From Slackia sp. ZJ119 (lineage in GTDB: Bacteria > Actinomycetota > Coriobacteriia > Coriobacteriales > Eggerthellaceae): a DNA stretch of 64,000 nt. Below are positions 9,911 to 23,208 of the stretch, piece after piece. Position numbers and translations under genes: made by a program. Within the stretch, counting starts at the first letter, position 1; each line of letters starts with the position of its first letter. Where the stretch lies: assembly GCF_011039175.1 (NCBI RefSeq), contig NZ_JAAKEN010000005.1, positions 62,001 to 126,000 on the forward strand, read 5' to 3'. Under the pieces are notes generated by a model. That model was given only the letters and a program-made list of their open reading frames with translations. It was not told the origin of the DNA and did not search any database.

Positions 9911-10627
9911 CTAGCCCAACCCGAACTTCGTCTTGATGCGATCGAGCTTTCGGCGCCATGGTTTATAGAGGATACGCAAAAACGCGACGGTGGCAAGCCC
10001 GTGCACGACGTCGAACGGCGCGGCGGCCGCGAAGGCGAGCACCGCGGCTTCCCAGCTGAAGGGATGCACGAAGCCGATGACGTACCAGCCGTTCATGAGC
10101 AGCCCGTACACGAGCGCAGAGGCGAACCCGTAGGCGTAGAGCACGGCGTCGCGGCGGAAGGCGCCGTGCGCGGCCAGGACGCCGGCCCCGTAGCCGACCA
10201 CGCCCCAGGCATACATCTGCCAGGCGGTCCACGGGCCTTGGCCGAAGAAGAAGTTGGACACGAGGGCCGCCAAGGCGCCGACGAGAAAGCCGCTGTGACG
10301 CCCGAACGAGGCGCCGGCCATGATGCACACCGCCGACACCGGCTTCACGTCGGGCACGGCCGCGAACAGGATGCGGCCGGCAGCCGCAAGCGCGGCGAGC
10401 ACCGCCGTCGGCATGATCTGGCCAAGGCCGGGGCGCGAACGCTCGTAGCCCGCCAAAAACACCGCGACGGCGCCAAGCGCGACAAGCAGGCTCAAAGCCG
10501 CGCTCTGCTCGACGGACAGCGCGGCGCATCCGGCCAGCACGCACGGCACCGAAGCAAGCGCCAGCACCTCGACGACCAGGCGCAACCGGGGCCGCATCGG
10601 CGCAGCGGGGGTGTGCGGCGACGCCAT
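9911..10627 (-). CDS. ECF transporter S component, predicted cobalamin or corrinoid specificity
   Basis: A 238-residue integral membrane protein with about six hydrophobic helices, the substrate-binding subunit of an energy-coupling-factor importer. Characteristic stretches are GRILFAAVPDVKPVSAV and NFFFGQGPWTAWQMYAWG, shared by S components encoded beside ECF ATPase and T genes. The ATG at 10627 starts four bases after the ATPase stop. Predicted specificity comes from the cobalamin riboswitch and transcobalamin-like partners in the same operon, not from ligand residues I can identify. Confidence 0.85.
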   Translation of the reverse strand: MASPHTPAAPMRPRLRLVVEVLALASVPCVLAGCAALSVEQSAALSLLVALGAVAVFLAGYERSRPGLGQIMPTAVLAALAAAGRILFAAVPDVKPVSAVCIMAGASFGRHSGFLVGALAALVSNFFFGQGPWTAWQMYAWGVVGYGAGVLAAHGAFRRDAVLYAYGFASALVYGLLMNGWYVIGFVHPFSWEAAVLAFAAAAPFDVVHGLATVAFLRILYKPWRRKLDRIKTKFGLG

Positions 10628-10631
10628 GGCG

Positions 10632-12137
10632 CTACCCTTCCCCGCCCGGCGCGTCGTCTTCTTCGGCCCGCGTCCGCGTGTCCGCCGCCTCCTGCCGCGC
10701 ACGCCAGCACCGTGCAAAGGCGTCGTCGAGCGGGCGGTAGAACGCGTTGTCGCAGAAAAACGCCTCGGGCGCCTCGGCGGCGGCGACCCGCCCGTCGAAC
10801 AGCAGCGCGACCTGGGTGGCGCACAAACGCGCGAACGCCAGGTCGTGCGTGGCGGAAACCACGGTCGCGCCGGCGGCCCGCGCCTCTTCGATCAAGCCCG
10901 CCACCTCGGCTTTCGAGGCGCCGTCAAGCCCCTTCGTCGGCTCGTCGAGCAAAAGCAGCGAAGGTTTCGTCAGCAAAAGCTTCGCGAGCGCCAGCTTCTG
11001 CCGCTCGCCGCCCGACAGATCATAAGGATGCACGGCGACGCGGCTTTCCAGGCCGCAGCGCTTGAGCATCTCGTCGACATCGTCGTCGCCGTACCCGCAC
11101 GCACGCTGCCATTCCTGCAGCTCTTCCATCGCGCTGTCGCACATGAACAGCAGGCGCGGATCTTGCGGCAAAAACGCCTGCCCCTTTGCGAGCGCGTTTT
11201 TGACGAAGCCACGTTCTGGGCGCATGACCTGGGAAATTGCTTTCAGCAACGTCGTTTTGCCCGATCCGTTGCCGCCGAGCAGCGCCGTGTGCGACCCGCG
11301 CGTCACGGCCGCGTCGAGCCCGCGCAGCACCCAGGGCGACGCCTTGTCGAAGCGCACCCACGCGTCGCGCACGTCGATCGCGAGCCCGGCGCCGGCATGG
11401 ACGTCGGCACGAGGCGCGGCGTGCCCGCCTGCGTCTGCGAGCGGACGGGGCCGAAACGCGTCGAGCGGCACGCGGGCCAGGCTTCCCCCTTCAAGCGCGA
11501 CGGCGTCGGTCGCGTAGTCCGCCATGGCAGCAGGCGCGTGGGTGGCCACGACGACCGTCACGCCCAGTTCGCGGTTGACGCGAAACAGTCCGTGCAGGAA
11601 GTTCTTCCCGGCCACCGGGTCGAGCTGGGCCGTCGGCTCGTCGAGCAGCACGATGCGCGGGCGCAGGGCCAAACACGCCGCCAAGGCCAGCACCTGCTGC
11701 TGGCCGCCCGACAATTCGGCGGTTGGGCGGTGCAGCCACGGCTCGATGCCGAAAAAGTGCGCGACTTCGGCCAGGCGCCGGCGCATGAGGGGCGGATCGA
11801 CGCCGAGGTTTTGCAGGCCGAACGCCAGCTCGCGCTCAACCGTGTCGCACACGATGTGGGACGCAGGGTCCTGAAACACGTACCCCGCCGTCTGGGCCGC
11901 TTCGCGGGGCGGGCGGGCGGCAGGGTCGACGCCGAACACGCGCAGGCGCCCCGACCTTTCGCCGACAGGCGCGATGGCAGGGACCGCTTGGCGCAAAAGC
12001 GTCGTCTTGCCGCTGCCGGTCGCGCCGACAAGCAGCTGAAAGGCCCCCTCTTCCACCGTCCAGTCGACCGCTTCAAGCACCTGCGTTCCGTCTGGATACG
12101 AAAATCCCAGGTCAGATGATTCTATCGCCAGCGTCAT
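10632..12137 (-). CDS. ECF transporter fused double ATPase (EcfA-EcfA' in one chain)
   Basis: Two ABC ATPase domains in one 501-residue chain energise ECF uptake. Domain 1: Walker A GATGSGKTT at residues 38-46, signature LSGGQ at 142-146, Walker B IVLLDEPTAQLD near 162-173. Domain 2: Walker A GGNGSGKT at 288-295, then LSGGERQ and LLLLDEPTKGLD. All motifs are intact, so both sites could be active. The ATG at 12137 overlaps the end of the T-component gene by 26 bp and has AAGGAG upstream. The frame upstream of it is the T-component gene read in another frame. Confidence 0.93.
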   Translation of the reverse strand: MTLAIESSDLGFSYPDGTQVLEAVDWTVEEGAFQLLVGATGSGKTTLLRQAVPAIAPVGERSGRLRVFGVDPAARPPREAAQTAGYVFQDPASHIVCDTVERELAFGLQNLGVDPPLMRRRLAEVAHFFGIEPWLHRPTAELSGGQQQVLALAACLALRPRIVLLDEPTAQLDPVAGKNFLHGLFRVNRELGVTVVVATHAPAAMADYATDAVALEGGSLARVPLDAFRPRPLADAGGHAAPRADVHAGAGLAIDVRDAWVRFDKASPWVLRGLDAAVTRGSHTALLGGNGSGKTTLLKAISQVMRPERGFVKNALAKGQAFLPQDPRLLFMCDSAMEELQEWQRACGYGDDDVDEMLKRCGLESRVAVHPYDLSGGERQKLALAKLLLTKPSLLLLDEPTKGLDGASKAEVAGLIEEARAAGATVVSATHDLAFARLCATQVALLFDGRVAAAEAPEAFFCDNAFYRPLDDAFARCWRARQEAADTRTRAEEDDAPGGEG

Positions 12138-13053
12138 CGCCGCTCCTTCCACCCAGAGCGAGCGTCGCTGCGCTCGGAAGCAGACACAGCGCCGCCCAAG
12201 GCGCATACAGCCCCCACGGAGCCCAGCCGCGCAGGTGCGGATAGAACGCAAAGGCGTCTGTCGCGCACAAGCCGCAGACGAGGCTTGCCAGCGCCAGCGC
12301 CCCGACGAGCGCCAGGGCCAGCGCGTCGGTCCGCCGCAGGCCGCGGCGCCGATAGCGCGTGCGCGGGCCCGACCCCCACGCGCGAGCCTTGCACGACGCC
12401 GCGCGGTCAAGCGAGTCCTCCAAGCCCCAGCCGACCACGACGGTGAGAACGCGCAGGGGCTGGCGCAGCGACGCGGCGCCCGGCAGCGGCCTGCGGCGGC
12501 CCCGTGCGCGACAGGGATCGCCAGACGCACCGCCTGCGCCGCCCGATGCACGGACCGCCGCCGTGTTCGCCGCCATGACGTCGCGCACGGCCCGGCCCCG
12601 CCGCGTGAACTGCGGCACGAGCGAGCAGGTCATCGACGTCAGAAGGCCCGTCACCGGCAGCACGCCGCCGACGAGGTCGAGCACGTCGTCAGGAGTCGCG
12701 ACCGAAAACAGCGCCGAGAACCACAGCAGCATGGCCGACAGCGAAAGCGCCATGACGCACCCGAAGACAAGGCTTTCAAGGTAGAAGGCGCGAGCGCCGA
12801 TGCGGAACAGCTCGGTTGAGCCCTGGGCGGCAAAGACGAAGTTGCCCAGCGCGACGAGCGCCATGAGCGGCGCCTGCCACGCAAACGAAGCCGCCGTTGC
12901 GCGAAGGCCCCGACAGGCGACGTTGGCAAGCGCGGCGCCCGCCCACGACACGACGGCGAGCACCGGCTGCATGAACGCCATGGACAGCACGATGGTCGAA
13001 GCGCCCCAGGCGAACGCGACCGCCGGATGAAACAGCTCTCCGACCGCGCCCAC
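12112..13053 (-). CDS. ECF transporter T component (EcfT/CbiQ-type)
   Basis: The transmembrane coupling subunit linking the ATPases to the S component. From the GTG at 13053 it has 313 residues, with hydrophobic segments near the N-terminus (IVLSMAFMQPVLAVVSWAG), mid-protein and C-terminus. A cytoplasmic segment with SCKARAWG resembles the EcfT ARG coupling helix. The GTG begins one base after the DUF4430 gene stop; no strong ribosome-binding site precedes it, so coupling is likely. The start is less certain than the rest. Confidence 0.82.
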   Translation of the reverse strand: MGAVGELFHPAVAFAWGASTIVLSMAFMQPVLAVVSWAGAALANVACRGLRATAASFAWQAPLMALVALGNFVFAAQGSTELFRIGARAFYLESLVFGCVMALSLSAMLLWFSALFSVATPDDVLDLVGGVLPVTGLLTSMTCSLVPQFTRRGRAVRDVMAANTAAVRASGGAGGASGDPCRARGRRRPLPGAASLRQPLRVLTVVVGWGLEDSLDRAASCKARAWGSGPRTRYRRRGLRRTDALALALVGALALASLVCGLCATDAFAFYPHLRGWAPWGLYAPWAALCLLPSAATLALGGRSGDDAGDRII

Positions 13054-13054
13054 G

Positions 13055-14086
13055 CTACAGGTCGCTTCCCAGCTCGCAGGTATAGGCCCAGCGAATGTCC
13101 TCTCCGCCGGACAGCTCGTAGGACCCGCAGCTGGAAGAGGGGCTTTCGCCGTCGACGAAGTAGAGCCAGCCGCTTTCGGCGCCGCACGAGAACTCGGCCA
13201 GGCCGTCGATGGACGACACGTAGTCCGACGCGCCCCCCACGGCAGCGCCCGTGGCGACGAGCGCATCGTAGACCGTGGCGCCAGCGGGAAGCTCGATGGA
13301 GGCGCGGGGACGCGACACGTCGTAGCCGAACGGCTCGGCGCGGGACGCGTCGATGGCGAGCGTGACCGTGATGGTCGCCGGACGGGCGGCATCGCCTGAG
13401 ACGGTCGGCTTGGGAGCGGAAGGCGCCGCGGCAGGCGCAGAAGCGCCGGACGTTCCGGAAGACGTGCCGGCCGAAGCGCTGGACGCGCCGTTTGCCCCGG
13501 TCGATGAGCTGGAAGCGGCACCGCCCGACGAAGCGTCCGGCTCGCGCGAAGGCTCTGGCTGCGTCTGTGCGCCGCCGGCGGAAGCCTCGGCGGCAGGCGC
13601 GGCGTCCGCTGCGCTCGACCCTTTCGGCGACGACGCGGACGCGCCGGCCGAAGAGCCGTCCTGCCCTGCTGTCGCGCCCGCGGTCTCGTCGGATGCCGCC
13701 GGCGGCTTGTCGGCAGCCTTGCCGCCGCCCGCATCCGGTTTTCCGGCCGGCTTCGCGTCGGCTGCGTCGCGGGCGTGCGGCGCTGCGTCGCCGGATGCCT
13801 GAGCGCGTTCGGATTCGCCCGCGCCGGCCGTCGATCGAGGCGCGGCCGATTCCGCAGCGGCGGCCGCGTCTTCCGCTTTGCCAGCGGCCGCGCCGCCCGG
13901 CTCTGCCGCCGGCCAGACAAGCGCCGCAACGCCGCACGCGACCGCAAGCACGGCCGCCCCGGCAGCTGCAGCCAGCTTCCAGCGCAAAGAGGTCGCCTTC
14001 GCCCCTTCGCCCTCCCGTTCGCCCGTGCTCGCCGCTTCTCCGCAGGCGACCGGAGGCGCTATTCGTTCGTCGATTTCGTCGCTCAT
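13055..14086 (-). CDS. Membrane-anchored transcobalamin-like beta-domain protein (DUF4430)
   Basis: A 343-residue protein with a single N-terminal membrane helix (about residues 36-59), a long Ala/Ser/Gly/Pro-rich linker (60-234), and a C-terminal DUF4430 domain (about 235-343). The domain ends with GWLYFVDGESPSSSCGSYEL followed by an Asp/Ile/Trp/Tyr strand, the family signature. DUF4430 (PF14478) corresponds to the C-terminal domain of transcobalamin and intrinsic factor, which closes over cobalamin. The linker could span the cell wall. Its ATG overlaps the upstream stop as ATGA. Confidence 0.9.
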   Translation of the reverse strand: MSDEIDERIAPPVACGEAASTGEREGEGAKATSLRWKLAAAAGAAVLAVACGVAALVWPAAEPGGAAAGKAEDAAAAAESAAPRSTAGAGESERAQASGDAAPHARDAADAKPAGKPDAGGGKAADKPPAASDETAGATAGQDGSSAGASASSPKGSSAADAAPAAEASAGGAQTQPEPSREPDASSGGAASSSSTGANGASSASAGTSSGTSGASAPAAAPSAPKPTVSGDAARPATITVTLAIDASRAEPFGYDVSRPRASIELPAGATVYDALVATGAAVGGASDYVSSIDGLAEFSCGAESGWLYFVDGESPSSSCGSYELSGGEDIRWAYTCELGSDL

Positions 14087-15771
14087 GTGCAGTCCTGTTC
14101 AACGTCTTGGCACGACCCGTCCGCAGCCGCCCCGCGAAGACGGCGCCCGGCCAGCCCCACAGCGGCCGCAAGCGCTGCCGCCGAAAGCCCAAGCGCACCT
14201 GCCATCAGGCAAAACGCCCCGTCGCTTGTCTGCGCGAGCGGCGTGCTCTTCACCTTCGCCGCCTTCGCCCTCCCGGCTTGCGACGCCGCGGCCGAAGCCG
14301 TCGCCGCCGATGCCGGCGCCCCGGAGCCGCTCGCGCCTTCGTCGGTCGGCCGCCCGTTGTCGGTCGGCTCCAATTCGTCGCCAGGGCCGCTTGGCTCCTG
14401 GCTCGACGTCGCCGGATGCAGCGGGTCGTGCGCCGCGTCGCCCCCTGAGGATTCGCTGCCGCCCTGCGAAGGGTCCGGCTTCGTTGCGCCGCCTTGGCCG
14501 GCGCCGGGGCCTTCCGCACCGCCAGGGTTTTCGGACTGCGTCGGCGGAAACGTCGCGTCGCGGTCCTTCGCCTGCACGTAGATGTTGTAGGGCCCGTTCG
14601 TGTTCTTGAGGCCGCGATAGGCGGCAAGCGCCCGAAATCCCTGCTCAGTGGCTGAATTATTCGGCTTGCCGTTGTAGTAGAACGACGTTTTGTCCGGCGC
14701 GGCCTGGGCGAGCAGGGCCGAAAGCGGAGTCGATCCGTCGGAAGCGGCCCACGCGGTCGCGGGGTCCATGCCGAGCGCACACAGGGCCACGACGGCCATC
14801 GCAGTCGAATTGGCGTTCGTCGCCGTCTGCACGCCCATGCCCGTCGCGCCCCAGCCGCCGTCGTCGTGCTGCAGCGCATGAAGCGCCCCCACGGCTTCGT
14901 CCACGACGGACTGCAGCGCCGCATCGCCTTGTGCAAGAGGCGCCAACGCCGCAATGACCATGGCCGTCATGTCGGCGTCCGACGCGCTTCCGCGGTACGC
15001 AAAACCGCCGTCTTCCAGCTGCTTCGACGTCAACGCCGCGACGAGCTGCTCCTTTGTCAGCTTCGCGGCAGGCGGCACGTCATAGCCGCCCTCATAGGCC
15101 AAAAGCGTGAACGCCAGCACGTTGACGGGAGAGGCGGCCGTGACGGCGTCAGCCATGGCCGCGACGGCGTCGTAGGGGCTGCCCGCGGCGGCGTCGGGCA
15201 CCTTGGTCGCGTCTTCCCCCACCGCCGTGAGCGCGATGATCGTGCGCTGGAACGCCGTCGCCGCATTGGCGGCCCCGGGCGTTTGCATGGCGGACGCCGC
15301 GCCGTCGACGAGCGCCGTCTTCGACTCAGGCGACAGGAGGCCGACGGCCGCCATGTCCATGCAGGCCCAGGCGTCGCCGGTCGTCGCATACTGCCCGGCG
15401 ATGCTGGTCATGAGCGCGAACACGTCGGTTTCGCTGACCGACGCGGGCGGGACGTCGCGCACCGCCTCAACGCCGGCCGGCTCGTCGGTGGCATCCGGTT
15501 CGGGCGATGCGCCGTCGTTTGCGGCAGGCTCCGAAGGCAGCGCGTCGGCCTCGCCGCCGGCCGACTCGTCGGGCGCCGGCGCCGGATCGCCCGCGGCGGG
15601 CGCGACGACTTCCGCCGCCTCTGCCGGCGCAGGAGCCTCGGCAACGGCCGCGCGGGGCGCGTCGGGCTCGCCCGCCCACGCGCACGCCGGCGCCCACGCG
15701 CCGACCAGCGCGACGACGAGAAGCGCCCGTCCCAGTTTTCCCGCCGTCTTCTTCAAGCCGGCAACGCCCAT
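14083..15771 (-). CDS. Wall-anchored alpha/alpha-toroid protein, transcobalamin alpha-domain-like
   Basis: A 562-residue exported protein. Residues 8-33 form a signal peptide (hydrophobic run, AWA-GE site), followed by an Ala/Pro/Glu linker. Residues about 115-400 hold repeated helix pairs with prenyltransferase/terpene-cyclase-type repeats: QLEDGGFAYRG then DADMTAMVIAAL, and QHDDGGWGATG then NANSTAMAVVAL. The same fold forms the alpha domain of intrinsic factor. A Gly/Pro linker ends in LAQTS (512-516), a hydrophobic helix and RRLRG, a sorting signal close to the LAXTG type of class E sortases. Start: ATG at 15771, 28 bp after a riboswitch terminator. Confidence 0.88.
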   Translation of the reverse strand: MGVAGLKKTAGKLGRALLVVALVGAWAPACAWAGEPDAPRAAVAEAPAPAEAAEVVAPAAGDPAPAPDESAGGEADALPSEPAANDGASPEPDATDEPAGVEAVRDVPPASVSETDVFALMTSIAGQYATTGDAWACMDMAAVGLLSPESKTALVDGAASAMQTPGAANAATAFQRTIIALTAVGEDATKVPDAAAGSPYDAVAAMADAVTAASPVNVLAFTLLAYEGGYDVPPAAKLTKEQLVAALTSKQLEDGGFAYRGSASDADMTAMVIAALAPLAQGDAALQSVVDEAVGALHALQHDDGGWGATGMGVQTATNANSTAMAVVALCALGMDPATAWAASDGSTPLSALLAQAAPDKTSFYYNGKPNNSATEQGFRALAAYRGLKNTNGPYNIYVQAKDRDATFPPTQSENPGGAEGPGAGQGGATKPDPSQGGSESSGGDAAHDPLHPATSSQEPSGPGDELEPTDNGRPTDEGASGSGAPASAATASAAASQAGRAKAAKVKSTPLAQTSDGAFCLMAGALGLSAAALAAAVGLAGRRLRGAAADGSCQDVEQDCT

Positions 15772-15798
15772 GGCGCCTTCCTTTCTCGTCCGTGGCGC

Positions 15799-15842
15799 AA
15801 AACAGAAAAAGCCGCACGCCGCCTCATGAGCAAACGTGCGGC
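15799..15842 (-). terminator. Intrinsic terminator of the cobalamin riboswitch leader
   Basis: On the minus strand GCCGCACG (15842-15835) pairs perfectly with CGTGCGGC (15818-15811), followed by TTTTTCTGTTTT. It lies between the aptamer and the first gene of the operon, the standard arrangement for B12-dependent premature termination. Confidence 0.8.
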
Positions 15843-15914
15843 CCGTATTCGCCGCAAAATCGTTCGAGCATCTTCGCCCGGCGCCTTCGCGGTAGACCGC
15901 CGCGGCGGCGCCCT

Positions 15915-16008
15915 TTCGCTCGCGCAGTATTCTGGCTGACAGGAAAAACCTGATCACAGTGGCGGTACCGTGCGGGATTCCCACCCGCTTTCCATGCCGT
16001 CGAGCGTG
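15915..16008 (-). promoter_or_regulatory. Cobalamin riboswitch
   Basis: The minus strand carries the conserved cobalamin aptamer core: GGGTGGGAATCCCGC, then CGGTACCGCCACTGTGA (the GCCACTG B12 box), then TCAGCCAGAATACTGC. Order and spacing match AdoCbl-type riboswitches. The 5' and 3' limits are approximate. The leader is about 240 nt long and ends in a terminator, so bound cobalamin should switch the downstream uptake operon off. Confidence 0.9.
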
Positions 16009-16022
16009 TTCGTCCGCCGATC

Positions 16023-16031
16023 AGTATACCA
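16023..16031 (-). promoter_or_regulatory. Extended -10 promoter for the cobalamin operon
   Basis: The minus strand reads TGG-TATACT, an extended -10 element with a 5/6 consensus hexamer, about 15 bases before the riboswitch aptamer. No good -35 box is visible 16-18 bp upstream, as is common for TGn promoters. Confidence 0.5.
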
Positions 16032-23041: not shown

Positions 23042-23208
23042 GGATTCTGTTTCAGGGCGAGGTGCAATTCCTCACTGGCGGTAATCTGGCCCTCCGTTCG
23101 AGGCGCCAAGAGTCCGCGACCCGCCTGCCGGCGTTTCAGGGCAGGCGGCTGACTGTGGTGCGATCCCACGACCAACGGTACAGTCCGGATGGAAGAGGCA
23201 GCGATCCG
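23042..23208 (+). promoter_or_regulatory. FMN riboswitch (RFN element)
   Basis: The conserved RFN order is present: AGGGCGAGGTGCAATTCCTC, ACTGGCGGTAATCTGGCC, a variable stem with CCTGCCGG/CAGGCGG, then GTGGTGCGATCCCACGACC, CGGTACAGTCCGGATGGAAG. The outer stem can be formed by GGATTCTGTTTC and GAGGCAGCGATCC. FMN binding should reduce expression of the riboflavin transporter genes downstream. Confidence 0.93.

Follow-up and report, generated by a model that had tools for sequence, protein, structure and literature searches.

An adenosylcobalamin riboswitch-headed operon of Slackia sp. ZJ119 encodes a candidate corrinoid capture-and-import system with separate toroid and DUF4430 surface proteins

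We analyzed a 64,000-nucleotide stretch of the genome of Slackia sp. ZJ119 (contig NZ_JAAKEN010000005.1, positions 62,001 to 126,000; referred to here as the window). The genome is 2.84 Mb in size and 99.9% complete. We found that the window carries an operon that probably encodes a corrinoid capture-and-import system. It consists of an adenosylcobalamin (AdoCbl) riboswitch and five co-directional, tightly packed genes, all on the minus strand. From 5′ to 3′, these encode a toroid protein, a DUF4430 protein, EcfT of an energy-coupling factor (ECF) transporter, a double ATPase on one chain, and an S component. A preliminary description of the sequence had placed an overlapping set of these genes behind a cobalamin riboswitch at positions 9911-16031. 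The arrangement, the gene content, and the coordinates of that description were confirmed. The features are as follows, in window positions.

15877..16019, minus strand: AdoCbl riboswitch aptamer RF01482 at the operon head (cmscan, 54.6 bits, with a gathering threshold of 50 and E 2.9e-7 over the full window)
14083..15771, minus strand: exported toroid protein, 562 amino acids (sequence, weak PF13243/PF00432 matches, AlphaFold2 model, and fold matches)
13055..14086, minus strand: anchored DUF4430 protein, 343 amino acids (PF14478, E 2.7e-14; family profile to haptocorrin and transcobalamin)
12112..13053, minus strand: EcfT, transmembrane T component (family profile to EcfT chains of the PDB; CbiQ homolog elsewhere)
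10632..12137, minus strand: fused double ECF ATPase (PF00005, E 1.4e-48, in two stretches; ECF_ATPase_1, 5.1e-71, which lies below its equivalog cut-off)
9911..10717 (TTG start) or 9911..10627 (ATG, the likelier start), minus strand: CbrT-like S component (phmmer and profile)

The toroid and DUF4430 genes overlap by 4 bases (ATGA), the EcfT gene starts one base past the stop of the DUF4430 gene, and the ATPase gene overlaps the EcfT gene by 26 bases. The riboswitch score assigns the leader to the AdoCbl riboswitch family, and the alignment contains the B12 box GCCACTGTGA.

We compared the S component with PDB sequences. The sole good phmmer match was CbrT (6fnp_A, 4.9e-11). A profile built from ten relatives (A1) matched 6fnp at 5.3e-13, 4hzu_S at 0.003, and RibU at 0.26, so that CbrT is about ten orders of magnitude ahead of the next S component. 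The Pfam match of the S component is PF07155, which has a riboflavin-type name; riboflavin was ruled out as the ligand by the profile values for CbrT and RibU. The EcfT protein of the window is divergent and matched no Pfam family. However, its family profile (A6) matched the EcfT chains of 4hzu, 4huq, and 5d3m/6fnp at 9e-8 to 1.6e-7, and a homolog at the same operon position in a large-genome actinobacterium belongs to PF02361, CbiQ (1.1e-7). The fused ATPase has two ATP-binding cassette domains on one chain. The operon thus holds the parts of a CbrT-type ECF transporter: an S component closest to CbrT, an EcfT, and ECF ATPases.

ECF-CbrT, characterized in 2018, uses ATP to import cobalamin and cobinamide (PMC5997447). 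Compared with ECF-CbrT of Lactobacillus delbrueckii (6FNP), the S component is homologous over its full length and EcfT is homologous as well. In contrast, a dedicated T component and a fused double ATPase lie here in one operon with the S component, and extra surface proteins, putatively for capture, are encoded with them. These comparisons support an importer of the corrinoid type, and they agree, together with the riboswitch, with the corrinoid control and corrinoid import proposed in the preliminary description. Cobinamide or other cobamides are possible ligands alongside cobalamin. We give very little credence to the alternative that the ligand is cobalt or another small cofactor. CbiO/CbiQ-type modules were indeed first tied to cobalt (cited in PMC1796856), and the Pfam name is riboflavin-type, but the lead of CbrT over RibU, the cobalamin riboswitch, and the relation of the surface domains to cobalamin carriers all argue against it.

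The genome encodes the B12-dependent methionine synthase MetH. CbiC, the only synthesis gene searched for, was not found in it. Because MetH is present and CbiC is absent, the organism probably needs imported corrinoids.

We next considered the surface proteins. The DUF4430 protein has one N-terminal hydrophobic segment as an anchor, a low-complexity linker of about 180 residues, and a C-terminal domain at approximately residues 235 to 340. This segment may be a transmembrane helix; alternatively, if translation begins at a downstream TTG start, it may be a lipoprotein signal with the lipobox LAVAC. The PF14478 match scores 53.8 bits, against a curated cut-off of 23.8. When the DUF4430 family profile was run against all PDB sequences, it matched haptocorrin (1e-4), the transcobalamin beta domain (2.4e-4), and bacterial RUMGNA_00854 (3.4e-4), with transcobalamin (0.0045) and intrinsic factor (0.09) at lower ranks. 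By sequence, the DUF4430 domain is a true relative of the transcobalamin/haptocorrin beta domain, which is the equivalence that the preliminary description had drawn with the C-terminal domain of animal B12 carriers. We found no paper on the function of bacterial DUF4430 proteins in the literature searched, which left most subscription journals and preprints outside its reach.

The toroid protein consists of a signal peptide, a low-complexity linker, the alpha/alpha toroid (approximately residues 112 to 400), a further linker, and a tail made up of LAQTSD, a hydrophobic helix, and RR. It had been described as an exported toroid protein with a wall-sorting-like tail. The signal peptide and the modeled fold are consistent with the first part, but the sorting-like motif is without the canonical Gly. 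The congener has LAQTDD at this point, relatives have MPATGD or LPKTGD, and the genome encodes a sortase. Because the Pfam matches (PF13243/PF00432) are weak and fall under their curated cut-offs, we base the toroid assignment on the model and the profile. The AlphaFold2 model had a predicted local distance difference test score (pLDDT) of 91.4 and a predicted template modeling (TM) score (pTM) of 0.90. Its structural matches included terpene cyclases (Z about 21), intrinsic factor (3kq4_A; Z 18.4, root mean square deviation [rmsd] 4.0, 243 residues aligned), a second intrinsic factor entry (Z 19.0, rmsd 8.1), haptocorrin (Z 17.9), and transcobalamin. In Foldseek, an intrinsic-factor alpha-domain chain (2pmv_B) had the top target-normalized TM score, 0.62, among the matches listed. 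A structural match of the toroid to intrinsic factor, as the preliminary description required, was obtained, but other toroids match about as well. The model indicates that the protein has the general fold of the intrinsic-factor alpha domain, with a fit that is not specific. Neither the toroid nor the DUF4430 protein matched PF01122, the intrinsic factor/transcobalamin family, at E ≤1.

These matches raise the alternative that the toroid is a secreted enzyme, either a terpene-cyclase relative or a corrinoid-processing protein, since the top matches by sequence and by fold are squalene-hopene and drimenyl diphosphate cyclases. However, the class II cyclase motif DXDD is not kept. The window protein has DADM opposite the DVDD of squalene-hopene cyclase, and relatives vary (DADV, DVDM, and DTQT). 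On this ground, we rejected a terpene-cyclase enzyme. In addition, the protein is exported and its gene shares a transcript with those of a B12 importer; an enzyme of any kind appears very improbable.

To determine how widely the operon is conserved, we assembled 80 loci from Coriobacteriia by an S-component scan of named genomes; 72 of them have EcfT on the contig. In 14 of these 72 loci, the product of the first operon gene carried a toroid, in 28 it carried a beta-propeller (PF13570/PF13360), and the two were never found together. We refer to this first protein as the head. Nine further loci had the DUF4430 protein only, and in 21, mostly from Collinsella or at contig ends, neither a head nor a DUF4430 protein was found. 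The small anchored DUF4430 protein adjoins EcfT in 47 of the 72 loci (automatic count), and the toroid or propeller chain often includes DUF4430-like domains itself, from one to four of them. Because the same order recurs in many Coriobacteriia, it is not due to chance. The operon heads of relatives carry the same type of element, as judged by Rfam models and a purpose-built covariance model. The latter gave 22 matches at E ≤1 in 1.27 Mb, 20 of them directly upstream of the first operon gene; all ten matches with E ≤0.03 are among those 20, three being its own seeds or a copy of one. The recurrence behind cobalamin riboswitches that the preliminary description had suggested looking for was thus found.

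Several of these loci differ in their surface proteins. The place of the toroid in the operon is taken in L055, L074, L100, L108, and 24 further loci by a large protein that combines a beta-propeller with DUF4430 repeats. We take these propeller heads to recall BtuG of Bacteroides. L047:5281-13891 is a variant operon in which two EcfT-like genes flank those for the S component and ATPase, and a propeller protein and a DUF4430 protein are also encoded; its S component is divergent, as is that of L041. In the Collinsella loci L105, L111, L115, L119-L123, L126-L129, L131, and L132, a CbrT-like ECF operon is present with no detectable DUF4430, toroid, or propeller gene. In L072 (Raoultibacter timonensis), the toroid and DUF4430 seemed to be fused, but this proved to be an artefact in which a run of N joins two genes in frame. 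No relative was found in viral contigs. In one relative, a raiA RNA (171.8 bits) lies immediately 3′ of the B12 operon (L053:2914-3168).

The linker between the anchor and the DUF4430 domain is 73 to 257 amino acids long in operons with a head protein, with one exception of 17 amino acids, and 15 to 28 amino acids long in head-less operons (rank test, p 1e-5, with loci treated as independent of kinship). Because the DUF4430 protein is present with beta-propeller heads or without a head too, it looks like the constant partner of the transporter. We considered an alternative in which the ECF transporter has the anchored DUF4430 protein as its only B12 receptor, and the toroid and the separately encoded tandem DUF4430 protein described below have another role at the surface, such as binding of the wall, mucin, or a host or neighbor cobamide-protein complex. 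The head-less DUF4430 operons (L090, L095, L098, L113, L114, L116, and L125) and the interchange of toroid and propeller heads favor this alternative, as does the finding that the isolated transcobalamin beta domain binds cobalamin unaided (PMC5599065). In contrast, the cobalamin riboswitch is followed first by the head gene, which in most cases encodes DUF4430-like domains of its own. Moreover, a distant actinobacterium has a toroid gene immediately behind a cobalamin riboswitch (RF00174, 32.5 bits; L170:5726-7212), and we detected no ECF gene in the vicinity. We consider a receptor made of the DUF4430 protein alone unlikely.

In close relatives, the toroid chain starts with two DUF4430-like domains (DD), which the window toroid lacks. 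We found a stand-alone DD gene at a second locus of the window genome (G000).

Contig C23:167269-169394 (L137:11269-13395), minus strand: stand-alone DD gene encoding a signal peptide, two DUF4430-like domains, and choline-binding-type wall repeats (second cobalamin riboswitch and homology)

The DD module encoded there is 40% identical over 322 amino acids to the N terminus of the toroid chain in L077. Directly before the gene lies a second cobalamin riboswitch of the window genome, RF00174 above threshold. In the congener (G002), an AdoCbl riboswitch precedes both the toroid operon (44.3 bits) and a distant DD gene (42.5 bits, E 1.5e-4), so that both stand-alone copies are behind a cobalamin riboswitch. 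G000 and G002 encode a stand-alone DD, and G001 and G007 have no separate DD gene but carry DD as part of the toroid chain; we never found both forms in one genome. This fused-or-separate pattern and the same switch type on both genes are good evidence that the DD module and the toroid act together. Also near the second locus is a lysine riboswitch, L137:8992-9227 (+) and L154:104-336 (+), and the gene behind it appears, by eye, to encode an ion-antiporter-type transporter.

Because the fused partner of the toroid is DD, the DUF4430 protein of the operon need not be the missing half of the toroid, and the DD pair competes with it for that role. This bears on the claim of the preliminary description that the two surface proteins are the halves of a vertebrate-like carrier on separate chains. 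The separate genes, the homology of DUF4430 to the beta domain, and the toroid fold stood; the pairing is weakened by the relatives, in which the toroid carries DD and the DUF4430 protein also pairs with propellers. Taken literally, with the toroid and the DUF4430 protein of the operon closing on one corrinoid like the intrinsic factor halves and the DD locus irrelevant, the claim has in its favor that the two genes adjoin and overlap and that their products have the alpha-domain fold and beta-domain homology. In view of the partners seen in relatives, we regard such a two-protein clamp as improbable. A clamp of several chains is chemically plausible because the isolated domains of transcobalamin assemble on cobalamin: the alpha and beta domains each bind it, beta first, and assembly requires it (PMC5599065 and PMC11107200).

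Previous work described parts of this system in general terms. Burroughs et al. (2007; PMC1796856) reported a transcobalamin-type beta-grasp (SLBB) domain in bacteria, fused to toroids or a beta-propeller, with CbiO/CbiQ-like operon genes and second extracellular copies, in hosts without B12 synthesis genes. They proposed that these proteins scavenge B12 and that animals acquired the toroid form by transfer; the text names no riboswitch. The novelty claimed in the preliminary description was therefore overstated. The system studied here shares with that clade an extracellular DUF4430 domain (PF14478 above its cut-off), toroid or propeller partners, a CbiO/CbiQ-like operon, paired extracellular SLBB proteins, and the absence of CbiC. 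It differs in that the toroid and DUF4430 proteins are separate chains, DD is at a second riboswitch locus, and toroid and propeller alternate at one position. In the literature searched, we did not find the riboswitches, the link to CbrT, the separate chains, the toroid/propeller alternation, the second DD locus, or the linker-length pattern.

Like vertebrate intrinsic factor, haptocorrin, and transcobalamin, the Slackia system combines an alpha/alpha toroid with a homologous beta domain. In contrast to them, its chains are separate and cell anchored, PF01122 is absent, and the toroid sequence is nearer to terpene cyclases. With BtuG/BtuH of Bacteroidetes it would share surface B12-binding proteins that supply an importer, but the surface is of the Gram-positive type, ECF replaces BtuB/BtuCDF, and the domains are DUF4430. 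The SCO2321-SCO2322 families (NCBIfam NF053823 and NF040672) of more distant actinobacteria have the same order of toroid, small second surface protein, T component, ATPase, and CbrT-like S component, and there too the toroid (SCO2321) is a separate chain; the second protein, however, belongs to the SCO2322 family. In the large-genome actinobacteria L168 and L169, an SCO2322 gene lies between the toroid and EcfT genes. No riboswitch reached the gathering score in the two SCO2321-type loci examined. That SCO2322 is itself a DUF4430 protein was not supported (hhalign probability, 0.65%). The two halves of DUF4430 seem to recur in SCO2322 in swapped order, as in a circular permutation: its N terminus (YWSFW...DGDVQGFRF) is similar to the C-terminal half and its C terminus to the N-terminal one. 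This resemblance was not significant in hhalign and serves as a lead only.

All of these data taken together favor, with moderate confidence, a cobalamin-switched corrinoid capture-and-import system with a surface relay and exchangeable heads, in which binding, clamp, relay order, and hand-off are inferred. According to this model, low intracellular AdoCbl would permit expression through the riboswitch. Surface DUF4430 (beta-grasp) domains would take the corrinoid first, aided by the larger head, which here would be the intrinsic-factor-type toroid, and the toroid would close on the corrinoid held by the beta-grasp domains. The tandem DUF4430 module would be made from the second riboswitch locus and held at the wall by its choline-binding-type repeats. 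Tethered by its long linker, the anchored DUF4430 protein would then receive the corrinoid and carry it to the CbrT-like S component, and EcfT and the double ATPase would drive the S-bound corrinoid inward.

Several observations weigh against this model. In head-less operons, the DUF4430 protein manages without a toroid. The fold matches of the toroid are unspecific, with sugar epimerases and intrinsic factor alike at Z 18 to 19 behind the terpene cyclases, and at the sequence level the toroid profile matches cyclases and not cobalamin carriers. RF01482 scores 42 to 46 bits at the stand-alone DD genes, slightly below the gathering score. The single-chain DD-toroid model of L077 (pTM 0.52) has a disordered linker; each domain is modeled, but the placement of DUF4430 on the toroid is not fixed, and fold searches with this model returned matches to the toroid part only. 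Finally, the linker comparison ignores relatedness, and most head-less operons come from Olsenella-like species.

We tentatively extend the model to Coriobacteriia as a modular B12 relay. In this relay, an exchangeable head, a tandem DUF4430 module, and an anchored shuttle may form a corrinoid-induced clamp of several chains that serves a CbrT-type ECF importer. The head chain would be split over two riboswitch loci in one lineage, so that the architecture of animal intrinsic factor would occur in separate parts. Elsewhere in the window, at 23044-23204 (+), lies a flavin mononucleotide riboswitch with 88 bits.

To our knowledge, how Gram-positive gut bacteria catch B12 ahead of import is largely unstudied, and we know of no general view that ECF importers need an extra binding protein. 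If the relay is real, it would provide a defined set of proteins for gut B12 competition in relatives of Eggerthella, Gordonibacter, Adlercreutzia, and Olsenella, and a bacterial reference for the assembly of animal B12 carriers from parts. The Collinsella operons that lack surface genes offer a natural comparison for the contribution of the surface proteins. The 2007 proposal supplied the general idea, and the separate chains and swappable heads are the new, testable detail: the variation between fused and divided chains and between toroid and propeller heads would be a natural experiment that makes that proposal directly testable.

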